A stretch of DNA of 64,000 nucleotides from Chloroflexota bacterium. GTDB taxonomy: Bacteria > Chloroflexota > Anaerolineae > Anaerolineales > Villigracilaceae. The notes under the pieces were generated by a model. That model was not told the origin of the DNA. It made no database searches and worked only from the letters and a program-made list of their open reading frames with translations. Below, one piece after another: positions 21,010 to 45,659 of the stretch (positions are counted from its first letter, which is position 1; every line of letters starts with the position of its first letter). A program made the translations under genes and the position numbers. Location: contig JACRBN010000026.1 of assembly GCA_016213105.1 (NCBI GenBank), positions 744,001-808,000 of the forward strand. Direction: 5' to 3'.

Positions 21010-21042
21010 GCTCTTCGTCCGACGCAACGACTGGTATAACCA

Positions 21043-21141
21043 GGGCGGGTCAGATATACCCAGCGCGGTCACAAATTGCGCTTTTTTAGAGAGGGGAAAA
21101 CGCAATTTGTGACCGTGGGTATTATATAATCTGACCCGCCC
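21043..21141 (+). repeat. 99-bp inverted-repeat element carrying TATAAT
   Basis: Outer arms GGGCGGGTCAGAT (21043-21055) and ATCTGACCCGCCC (21129-21141) are perfectly complementary. Inner arms CGGTCACAAATTGCG and CGCAATTTGTGACCG are also complementary. Between them lies CGTGGGTATTATATAAT (21114-21130), a 17-mer found once more, exactly, at 37546-37562 on the minus strand in front of ligA. The element is compatible with a MITE or a mobile promoter. The gene at 21183 follows in the same direction. Confidence 0.65.
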
Positions 21142-21182
21142 TTCGATTTGAGGGTAAACTTCGAAAGCCTGCCATCTTCCTG

Positions 21183-26760: not shown

Positions 26761-26946
26761 AAAGCTGTCTCCTTAATCGTTAATCAGGTGCATGGACTAT
26801 ACGACCATCCGCCCGATTCCGCAACTGGAAGAAGGGGGAGGGGGGAGTTGCTGGAGATTTTGGAGCGGGCCGTCTAGACAGTGCAAACGCCCTTGCCAAA
26901 TGACCAGGTCTCATGTGTCATCATTGTGTATACAGGAGATTTTGCC

Positions 26947-27189
26947 ATGAAAACAACCGTCCAGAAATGGGGTAACAGCTATGCCGTGCGAATTCCAAAA
27001 TCCTTCATCAAGGAAGTGGGCCTCGAATATCGCAAAGACGTGATCCTTTCCCTGGAGGAGGACCGCCTCGTGATCACACCTGTCAAAGAGGAGACCATCA
27101 CGCTCGATGAACTGCTGGAGGGTGTGACCCGCAAAAACCTGCACAATGCCGTGGATACAGGCGATCCCGTAGGGAATGAGGCCTGGTGA
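26947..27189 (+). CDS. mazE: Antitoxin, AbrB/MazE family
   Basis: 80 residues. The N-terminus TTVQKWGNSYAVRIPKSFIKEVGL is the SpoVT/AbrB DNA-binding fold of MazE. The acidic C-terminus is the likely toxin-binding part. The start at 26947 follows a CAGGAG Shine-Dalgarno, and the longer frame upstream is not supported. Such antitoxins neutralise MazF and repress their own promoter. It is coupled to the toxin gene. The pair sits alone between the ABC exporter and a terminator, a common setting for mobile or stabilising toxin-antitoxin modules. Confidence 0.88.
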   Translation: MKTTVQKWGNSYAVRIPKSFIKEVGLEYRKDVILSLEEDRLVITPVKEETITLDELLEGVTRKNLHNAVDTGDPVGNEAW

Positions 27190-27191
27190 GC

Positions 27192-27509
27192 ATGTACATC
27201 CTGGAGCGCGGCGATGTCGTTTGGATTGCGTTCAATCCCCAGGCGGGCCATCGTCCCGCAGTGGTGCTTTCTCCCAAAGCCTATAACAGCAAGGTGGGCC
27301 TGGCATTGTTATGTCCCATCACCAGCCAGGTTAAGGGGTATCCCTTCGAGGTGCTATTGCCTGAATATCTACCCATCAGCGGAGCGATTCTTTCAGACCA
27401 GGTGAAAAACCTGGATTGGAAGGTACGAGAGGCGAAGAAGATTTGCCATTTGCCTGATGATGTGATGAACAAGGTTCTGCAGAGAGTCAAAGCACTACTC
27501 GAACCATAA
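27192..27509 (+). CDS. mazF: mRNA interferase toxin, MazF family
   Basis: 105 residues. MYILERGDVVWIAFNPQAGHRPAVVLSPKAYN is the PemK/MazF core opening. LLCPITSQVKGYPFEVLLP and GAILSDQVKNLDWKVREAK complete the barrel and include the Thr/Ser and Arg residues used for RNA cleavage in the family. A GTG start at 27186 overlapping the mazE stop is an alternative. ATG at 27192 is preferred for its spacing to GAGG. The pair is followed by a perfect 12-bp hairpin terminator. Confidence 0.9.
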   Translation: MYILERGDVVWIAFNPQAGHRPAVVLSPKAYNSKVGLALLCPITSQVKGYPFEVLLPEYLPISGAILSDQVKNLDWKVREAKKICHLPDDVMNKVLQRVKALLEP

Positions 27510-27583
27510 GGTACTTTCGGCAGAAGATCGAACCAGAACCTGGCCTGAACGCGCATGTGGTCGAACGATTGAAATAAAAATGA

Positions 27584-27613
27584 AAAGGCCCGTCTCAAAT
27601 TAGACGGGCCTTT
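27584..27613. terminator. Bidirectional terminator between mazF and 27618 gene
   Basis: AAAGGCCCGTCT (27584-27595) and AGACGGGCCTTT (27602-27613) form a perfect 12-bp stem with a 6-nt loop. A-rich on one side and T-rich on the other, so it can serve both convergent genes. Confidence 0.85.
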
Positions 27614-27617
27614 CATG

Positions 27618-28238
27618 CTAATAACCGATAAAAACGAAGAGCACAGTCGTTCTGTCTGCGTTCACCCACATGAACCAGGAACTTTCAGTTTCGCGGTCAT
27701 CTTTTGAATAGTATGTCCATTCTTGGCTCTTCTTTACATTCGGAAAATATTTGAAGGGCGCATTCAGATAGTTTTCGTTTGTTTCACCGTTATCAAGAAC
27801 AAGGCCATTTTGGGTAATGAGATCATCTATCACTTCTGGTGTGGCCTCAAAGGCCAGCCCGTATTCCACGTCAAAGCCGCCTGAATTATCGTAAGACTGT
27901 ATATTCGACACGCCAGTGGGTATCGGATCACTTAGCAGCCTCTTGAATATCACCCTTGGATTTTGATCGTACAGTGACACGCCGTTTATGATCACGGCGC
28001 AAAGAATGGGGATCATTACAGGCAGGATAAGACGCAAAGCAGGTTTGGTCCTTTGACTGAACGTAGTATTGAAAAATAGAAAATATGACAGCGGAACTGC
28101 GCACAAGAGCGGTGTAACAGCGCCACATACACCGACAATCCCTGGCCCGCTGACGATGAATGAAAGCAGTGCCGCGATGCCCATGATCAAGCCTATCAAG
28201 AGGGTCAGGATTACAGGTTCGGTGTATTTTTTGTCCAT
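27618..28238 (-). CDS. Hypothetical membrane protein
   Basis: 206 residues, not recognised. Three hydrophobic segments lie in the first half (about 8-30, 33-55 and 70-92). A soluble C-terminal part contains FDVEYGLAFEATPEVIDDLITQNGLVL and the end SSWFMWVNADRTTVLFVFIGY. Base composition is clearly more AT-rich than the neighbours, which hints at recent acquisition. It lies 3 bp downstream of the P-type ATPase stop and may be read from the same riboswitch-controlled transcript. Confidence 0.6.
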   Translation of the reverse strand: MDKKYTEPVILTLLIGLIMGIAALLSFIVSGPGIVGVCGAVTPLLCAVPLSYFLFFNTTFSQRTKPALRLILPVMIPILCAVIINGVSLYDQNPRVIFKRLLSDPIPTGVSNIQSYDNSGGFDVEYGLAFEATPEVIDDLITQNGLVLDNGETNENYLNAPFKYFPNVKKSQEWTYYSKDDRETESSWFMWVNADRTTVLFVFIGY

Positions 28239-28241
28239 GCG

Positions 28242-30953
<2,712 letters not shown>

Positions 30954-30991
30954 GTTTTTTTTCCTGTCCATCTGATGATACTCCAGCAATA

Positions 30992-31024
30992 AATAAAAAA
31001 CCACCGCCAGATTTGTGGCGATGG
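30992..31024 (-). terminator. Riboswitch expression platform: intrinsic terminator
   Basis: On the minus strand CCATCGCCA (31024-31016) pairs with TGGCGGTGG (31009-31001), loop CAAATC, followed by TTTTTTATT. The first CCAT is also the 3' strand of aptamer stem P1, so ligand binding that stabilises P1 would prevent this hairpin. Confidence 0.85.
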
Positions 31025-31104
31025 TCTGGCCTTTGCTCGAACAACCGAGAACGAATTCTGTACTGACGGCTGCTCATCCCAAGCATGGGCGGCTACTCCC
31101 CATT
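31021..31104 (-). ncRNA. yybP-ykoY manganese riboswitch aptamer
   Basis: Reading the minus strand, AATGGGGAGTAGCC (31104-31091) gives the P1 5' strand and the family's GGGGAGUAGC motif. A hairpin GCCCATGCTTGGGATGAGC follows, then GCCGTCAGTACA as the second conserved block, then a variable arm, and GGCCAGACCAT (to 31021), where CAGA-CCAT closes P1 with AUGG. Known members sense Mn2+ and control Mn exporters, including P-type ATPases. The downstream P-type ATPase, the promoter and the overlapping terminator all agree. Aptamer identity is by eye. A covariance-model search would settle it. Confidence 0.85.
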
Positions 31105-31115
31105 GGAGTGGGAGC

Positions 31116-31144
31116 AGTATACAAAATGGGGAGGGCGTTGTCAA
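31116..31144 (-). promoter_or_regulatory. Sigma70-type promoter for riboswitch and ATPase
   Basis: On the minus strand -35 TTGACA (31144-31139), 17-bp spacer, -10 TATACT (31121-31116). Transcription would begin near 31109, a few bases before the aptamer. Confidence 0.9.
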
Positions 31145-44960: not shown

Positions 44961-45659
44961 ATGCACATCGACAAGGATTTTTATGCAGGGGTGCGGGGAG
45001 TAGTCCCCATTCTGATCGGGGTGATCCCGTTTGCCATGATCTCCGGCGTGGCGGCGGTCAGCGTCGGCCTGACGTTGTTCGAGACCATCGGCATCTCTGT
45101 GATCGTTTTTGCCGGGGCGTCTCAGTTGGTGGTGTACCAGTTAATGAGCGCCGGCAGTCCGTGGATCATCATGGTGTTGACCGCCTGGGTAATCAACCTG
45201 CGCTTCACGATGTACAGCGCCACCCTGGCGCCCTACCTGCAAAAACTCCCGCTGGGACAGAAGGCCCTGCTGGCGTACATGTTGTCGGACCAGGCTTTTG
45301 GCACCAGCATGTCCTATTTCATAGGCAACGAAAAGGTCAGTCACCGCTGGTATTATTTTGGCGCCGCCCTGACCATCTGGGTCGCCTGGCAGATCAGCGC
45401 CGTCATCGGGGCGTTGTTGGGCGCGCTCGTCCCTGCCAGTTGGGGCTTCGATTTTGCCTTTCCGCTCAGTTTCATGGCGTTGATGTTCGGCGCGCTCTAT
45501 GATCGTCCCACCGTGGCGGCGGCCCTGGTGGGCGGAAGCGTCGCTGTGCTGGCCAGGGGATTGCCGTACAACACCGGACTGGTGCTGGCTATTTTTCTGG
45601 GAATTGCCGCGGGATACTTTCTCGAAAGCCGGCTGCCCCGCAAGGAAATCGCACAATGA
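44961..45659 (+). CDS. azlC: AzlC-family branched-chain amino acid exporter, large subunit
   Basis: 232 residues, about six membrane helices. GVRGVVPILIGVIPFAMISGVAAVSVGL (about 8-35), FAGASQLVVYQLMSAGSP and WVINLRFTMYSATLAPYLQ (about 76-94) are family hallmarks. AzlC with AzlD exports branched-chain amino acids in known cases. The start at 44961 (MHIDKDFYAG) fits the family. The longer frame upstream runs into the terminator and is rejected. Coupled to azlD by an ATGA overlap. Confidence 0.92.
   Translation: MHIDKDFYAGVRGVVPILIGVIPFAMISGVAAVSVGLTLFETIGISVIVFAGASQLVVYQLMSAGSPWIIMVLTAWVINLRFTMYSATLAPYLQKLPLGQKALLAYMLSDQAFGTSMSYFIGNEKVSHRWYYFGAALTIWVAWQISAVIGALLGALVPASWGFDFAFPLSFMALMFGALYDRPTVAAALVGGSVAVLARGLPYNTGLVLAIFLGIAAGYFLESRLPRKEIAQ

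Follow-up and report, generated by a model that had tools for sequence, protein, structure and literature searches.

The window, the whole 64,000-nt stretch of Chloroflexota DNA analysed here, very probably contains a yybP-ykoY riboswitch that senses Mn2+ and controls, by transcription antitermination, a downstream ATPase predicted to export the metal. The minus strand carries, from 31144 to 30992, a sigma70-type promoter, then a Mn2+ aptamer of the yybP-ykoY type, then an intrinsic terminator. The features of the locus are listed below, with scores from the Rfam model RF00080 and from R1, a covariance model built from 51 aligned members, all of them Chloroflexota sequences.

31139..31144, minus strand: -35 hexamer TTGACA (11/12 promoter matches for the hexamer pair)
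31116..31121, minus strand: -10 hexamer TATACT, with a 17-nt spacer from TTGACA
31017..31111, minus strand: yybP-ykoY (Mn2+) riboswitch aptamer (R1, 70.7 bits, E 4.1e-18; RF00080, 21.9 bits, E 3.5e-4)
31100..31103, minus strand: 5' strand of P1.1, AUGG, with its partner CCAU at 31024-31021
31092..31101, minus strand: L1 motif GGGGAGUAGC, the first two G of which pair with the CC of AGACC to form the top of P1.1
31101-31092, minus strand: GGGGAGTAGC, as read in the sequence
31078..31089, minus strand: P2 hairpin CCC-AUGCUU-GGG (89.7% paired, all four main pairs covarying)
31039..31075, minus strand: P3.1 GAGCAGCCG/CGGUUGUUC, L3 UCAGUAC and P3.2 AGAA-UUCG-UUCU, identified by covariation
31066-31060, minus strand: L3 UCAGUAC, 7 nt, placed between its flanking helices
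31064, minus strand: third base of L3, equivalent by L3 comparison to the Mn2+-sensing adenosine
31032..31038, minus strand: 7-nt linker in place of P4, unable to form a hairpin
31023..31031, minus strand: conserved 3' strand GGCCAGACC (P1.2 and top of P1.1), from alignment and covariation
31031-31021, minus strand: strand GGCCAGACCAU, between P3.2 and the terminator hairpin
30992..31027, minus strand: intrinsic terminator, with a 5' arm AGACCAUCGCCA that overlaps the 3' strand of P1.1, then a T-rich tail (-18.0 kcal/mol)
28242..30971, minus strand: P2A-type cation ATPase, 909 aa (Pfam E1-E2_ATPase, 6.4e-53)
27618..28238, minus strand: orphan membrane protein of 206 aa, 3 bp downstream of the ATPase
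27583..27614, minus strand: terminator after the 206-aa gene, the end of the putative operon (13 pairs, 7 GC)

An earlier note had read TTGACA-17-TATACT and an aptamer closed by AUGG/CCAU on this strand, and the hexamers, the motif and the pairings are all found there. Transcription is expected to start near 31109. A promoter with at least 9/12 matches was present within 60 nt upstream of 101 of 121 related leaders, versus 9 of 121 shuffled sequences. The ATG of the ATPase (30971) lies about 20 nt downstream of the leader, and the true start may be either this codon or the ATG at 30953 (MNWH, as in relatives).

The core bases of L1 and L3 are all intact in the window copy, in which P3.1 is a helix of nine pairs and P3.2 is capped by UUCG. 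In P1.1, four pairs are followed by an A-C mismatch, at a position where many close relatives continue with CG. The P4 arm is absent, resulting in a three-way junction, whereas the crystallised Mn2+ riboswitches are four-way junctions. The linker is 11 nt or shorter in 16 of the 51 aligned members and folds into a hairpin with an energy of -2 kcal/mol or lower in 29 of them; P4 is, therefore, treated as an optional arm, variable within the group and no bar to riboswitch membership. The closest counterpart described is the L. lactis riboswitch upstream of yoaB (PMC11087558, PMC9190785), which belongs to a different phylum and possesses the P4 arm, but has the same L1 and L3 motifs (L3 is UCAGUAC in the window and UCA41AUUC in L. 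lactis), the same two G-C pairs atop P1.1 and a terminator that likewise uses the 3' strand of P1.1.

The distribution of this element in the phylum was assessed in 400 genomes with the two-part pattern GGGGAGTAGCN{8,38}CGTCANYAC, and with the reversed pattern as a control. The motif was found in 54 of the 400 genomes, against seven matches in five genomes for the control, and 55 distinct members were collected, 51 of which were aligned. RNAalifold applied to the alignment gave 27 pairs, 17 with compensatory changes. With P1.1 in the register named by the earlier note, 89.6% of cells were paired in the alignment; the P1.1 helix 7-12/168-173 had 75.8% of cells paired and double changes in four of six pairs, and P1.1 seems to have two register variants among members. 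In P3.1 and P3.2, 95.5% and 92.5% of cells were paired, respectively, with double changes in 12 of 15 pairs. Double-change cells numbered 285, as opposed to 86.6 +/- 9.1 in shuffled alignments, a value above all 500 shuffles, and the covariation score was 0.550 versus at most 0.14 in slid controls. Covariation supports P1.1, P1.2, P2, P3.1 and P3.2, although the two P1.2 pairs never vary and are, hence, uninformative in this respect. The leaders precede genes read from their sequences as P-type ATPases, TerC-like genes and cation-exchanger-like genes. An R1 match was also found upstream in 25 loci among 80 named relatives of the ATPase, including some from Nitrospirota, Myxococcota and Thermodesulfobacteriota. 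A 2013 description places yybP-ykoY in more than 75% of taxonomic groups (PMC3766115). In one Nitrospirota genome, which bears the title Mn-Nitrospirae, a single ATPase is preceded by two Mn riboswitches (L157:1676-1792 and 2803-2904) separated by about 1 kb.

The Rfam covariance search that the earlier note had proposed as a check fell short: at the gathering score, Rfam gave no match in the window, and RF00080 (cut-off 45) reached only 21.9 bits, with an E-value of 3.5e-4 in the 401 nt of the locus alone and 0.055 over the whole window. The E. coli mntP riboswitch is also below the cut-off with this model (41.6 bits), alx gives no reported match with an E-value of 0.01 or below, and the cut-off was reached by none of 20 motif-bearing Chloroflexota loci. 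RF00080 matched in five of 14 control genomes, above the cut-off in only two. This failure reflects a limit of sensitivity rather than a refutation, because E. coli mntP and all 20 related loci fail too. R1, by contrast, matches 88 of 150 relatives and, despite its purely Chloroflexota origin, finds the E. coli leaders of mntP (32.6 bits, E 3e-7) and alx (22.6 bits, E 2.2e-4), each just upstream of its gene; these share a common core with the window copy, although their target genes differ and mntP is controlled translationally. Recovery of these two leaders argues for common descent with validated members. The yybP-ykoY identity given in the earlier note is, thus, supported by the covariance match across phyla, by the covariation and by the partner genes. 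The locus is an ordinary yybP-ykoY riboswitch, but one from a Chloroflexota group overlooked by standard database search. The Rfam cut-off hides this group, so its absence from annotations in the phylum means little, and the 51-sequence alignment would help to mend RF00080 (the cut-off that mntP and the 20 Chloroflexota members miss is that of Rfam 15). Two weaker resemblances were set aside. An R1 match at 44985-45092 in the window (14.4 bits, E 0.05) was taken as noise. A match to RF02617 (SSRC10, an sRNA of Streptococcus) that overlaps the locus scores 24.7 bits against a cut-off of 56, and this model had no match in any genome, controls included; what it has in common with the locus is the P3/L3 and terminator region, so the match looks like a likeness between elements of one kind.

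The base that senses Mn2+ is A41 in L. lactis and A48 in X. oryzae (PMC6754395). Its equivalent is kept in 122 of 124 R1 matches, a count to be read with the fact that R1 was seeded with a pattern requiring this base; the exceptions are L264 and a weak second match in L249. About 40 related leaders, including G000:C25:679093-679204, were initially read as lacking this otherwise invariable adenosine. This reading was dropped because, with L3 placed by its flanking helices, the variation (A, C or U) falls on the sixth base of this loop; the corresponding base is U44 in L. lactis (UCA41AUUC) and C51 in X. oryzae (ACA48UACU), so a pyrimidine is normal at this position. The sensing adenosine is that of CGUCA, and is kept in those leaders. 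A link between the form with a variable L3 base and ATPases was also considered and failed, as this form precedes exchanger-like and TerC-like genes outside the family.

The terminator stem (31027-30998) has 12 pairs and is followed by TTTATTTATT. The earlier note had the terminator reuse the 3' strand of P1; this overlap is present, but the shared part is larger than CCAU alone, extending to AGACCAU. In most of the 55 distinct members, a T-rich stretch comes after a hairpin that starts inside GNNAGACC. The P1.1 helix of L. lactis is stabilised by Mn2+, and its first two G-C pairs (G5 and G6 with C95 and C96) block an overlapping terminator (PMC11087558). Because the GG/CC pairs and the terminator overlap match the architecture proven in that species, ligand-ON antitermination, as predicted in the earlier note, is most likely the best reading, given an anatomy that is common across the phylum. 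Energy folding cannot show a metal response, because the metal-free model prefers an alternative 5' hairpin together with the terminator, and this is indeed the minimum-energy fold. This fold, the RF00080 score, the missing P4 and the A-C mismatch in P1.1 all count against the favoured reading. RNA polymerase would start near 31109 and transcribe the aptamer. At low Mn2+ levels, P1.1 (AUGG/CCAU) would be weak and its 3' strand would be captured by the hairpin AGACCAUCGCCA/UGGCGGUGGUUU, with transcription ending in the T-rich tail near 30992. At high Mn2+ levels, L1 and L3 would dock around the ion at A31064, P1.1 would be held and the terminator blocked, allowing transcription of the ATPase and probably of the 206-aa gene too. 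The ATPase would then export surplus Mn2+, and possibly Ca2+.

The other readings of the leader are far less probable. Control of translation rather than termination would follow the example of the translational Mn riboswitch of E. coli mntP, and in two related loci (L074 and L075) a second hairpin holds GGAGGTGAG and has no T run after it, as would suit an effect on translation; this seems improbable for the window copy given its 12-pair stem and T-rich tail, and given that the hairpin does not include the probable ribosome-binding site (GGAG, 30983-30980). It is slightly less probable still that the leader has decayed, being always off or always on and no longer sensing Mn2+, as the weaker P1.1 and the missing P4 could suggest: the L1/L3 core is whole, and 16 of 51 members, several of the closest relatives among them, have the P4-less form. 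The idea that an ordinary 5' leader resembles the motif by chance, to which the subthreshold Rfam score might point, is refuted by the covariation, the recurrence across the phylum and the R1 E-value of 4e-18, and we give it almost no credence. It is also doubtful that the Mn2+ riboswitch of Chloroflexota is a separate form, often a three-way junction lacking P4, that escapes Rfam and has a metal affinity or selectivity altered (for Ca2+ as well as Mn2+, for example) to match its ATPase.

The ATPase has the Pfam domain set of P-type cation ATPases. Its best NCBIfam match is the PMR1-type model TIGR01522 (710.5 bits, cut-off 798.3), and the SERCA-type model TIGR01116 gives 630.9 bits (cut-off 703.4); since both are below their cut-offs, these models assign no substrate. 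The nearest solved structure is that of LMCA1 (6zhh, E 4e-174), a Listeria Ca2+ ATPase that is, like the pump of the window, a P2A ATPase, with similarity extending over the whole length. The ion-site residues of the two proteins differ, the alignment placing a K in M5 and a Q in M8 of the window ATPase, at places that we take to be acidic in SERCA. This suggests a single ion site, as in pumps carrying Ca2+ or Mn2+. The ATPase could, then, be mainly a Ca2+ pump of the PMR1/LMCA1 kind, which the same riboswitch turns on in response to Mn2+ or to a number of divalent ions. This possibility, which we regard as real if rather unlikely, is consistent with the best NCBIfam matches (below cut-off) and the nearest structure all being Ca2+ ATPases, and with the pneumococcal system described next; on the mapping that we assume, however, only one of the two SERCA-type ion sites looks intact, as in Mn2+-carrying pumps, and genes for TerC-like proteins, which form a Mn2+-linked family, are among those that accompany this RNA in the phylum. 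In S. pneumoniae, the same RNA family precedes another cation-transporting P-type ATPase, MgtA, and this system has been described as sensing Mn/Ca and controlling an ATPase for Mn2+ and Ca2+ (Martin et al. 2019, as cited in PMC11434433). With this precedent from another phylum, the riboswitch tips the predicted substrate of the window ATPase towards Mn2+, perhaps with Ca2+ as well. The Mn exporter proposed in the earlier note is, thus, plausible, although the ATPase sequence itself does not settle the choice between Mn and Ca. A likely manganese role is indicated for a pump annotated as a generic cation ATPase and for two further pumps in the same genome.

Three leaders of this kind occur in the genome, and each precedes its own P2A ATPase. 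The second (L192, G000:C25:679093-679204) precedes a 971-aa ATPase, and the third (L193, G000:C8:198579-198678) is followed by a VTT/DedA-domain gene and, after it, by an ATPase of 896 aa; both are R1 matches with a promoter and a terminator, and their ATPases are 47-48% identical to that of the window. A TerC gene (L192:1650-2534) lies just upstream of the second leader, outside its control. The Mn riboswitch is often separated from the ATPase by a DedA/VTT-domain gene, as at L193:4386-5033, L002:837-1502 and some ten further loci. At the orthologous locus L002, from the same genus, such a gene occupies this position, whereas the window has none. DedA proteins may take part in manganese handling here; our literature search found no paper linking yybP-ykoY with DedA.

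The 206-aa protein has no Pfam or NCBIfam match, and its gene has a GC content of 0.46, versus 0.64 for the ATPase. The 3-bp gap and the terminator just beyond the gene suggest that it is probably co-transcribed with the ATPase. The co-regulation expected by the earlier note is, thus, consistent with gene position and the common terminator (27614-27583); the gene has no relative in any of the other loci compared. Elsewhere in the window, about 100 nt (21041-21142) form an almost perfect inverted repeat, whose score of 32 bits with a model of a plant microRNA is surely due to its shape alone. Just past the 206-aa gene, on the plus strand (26881-27509), lie genes for a MazE-like antitoxin and a PemK/MazF-like toxin.
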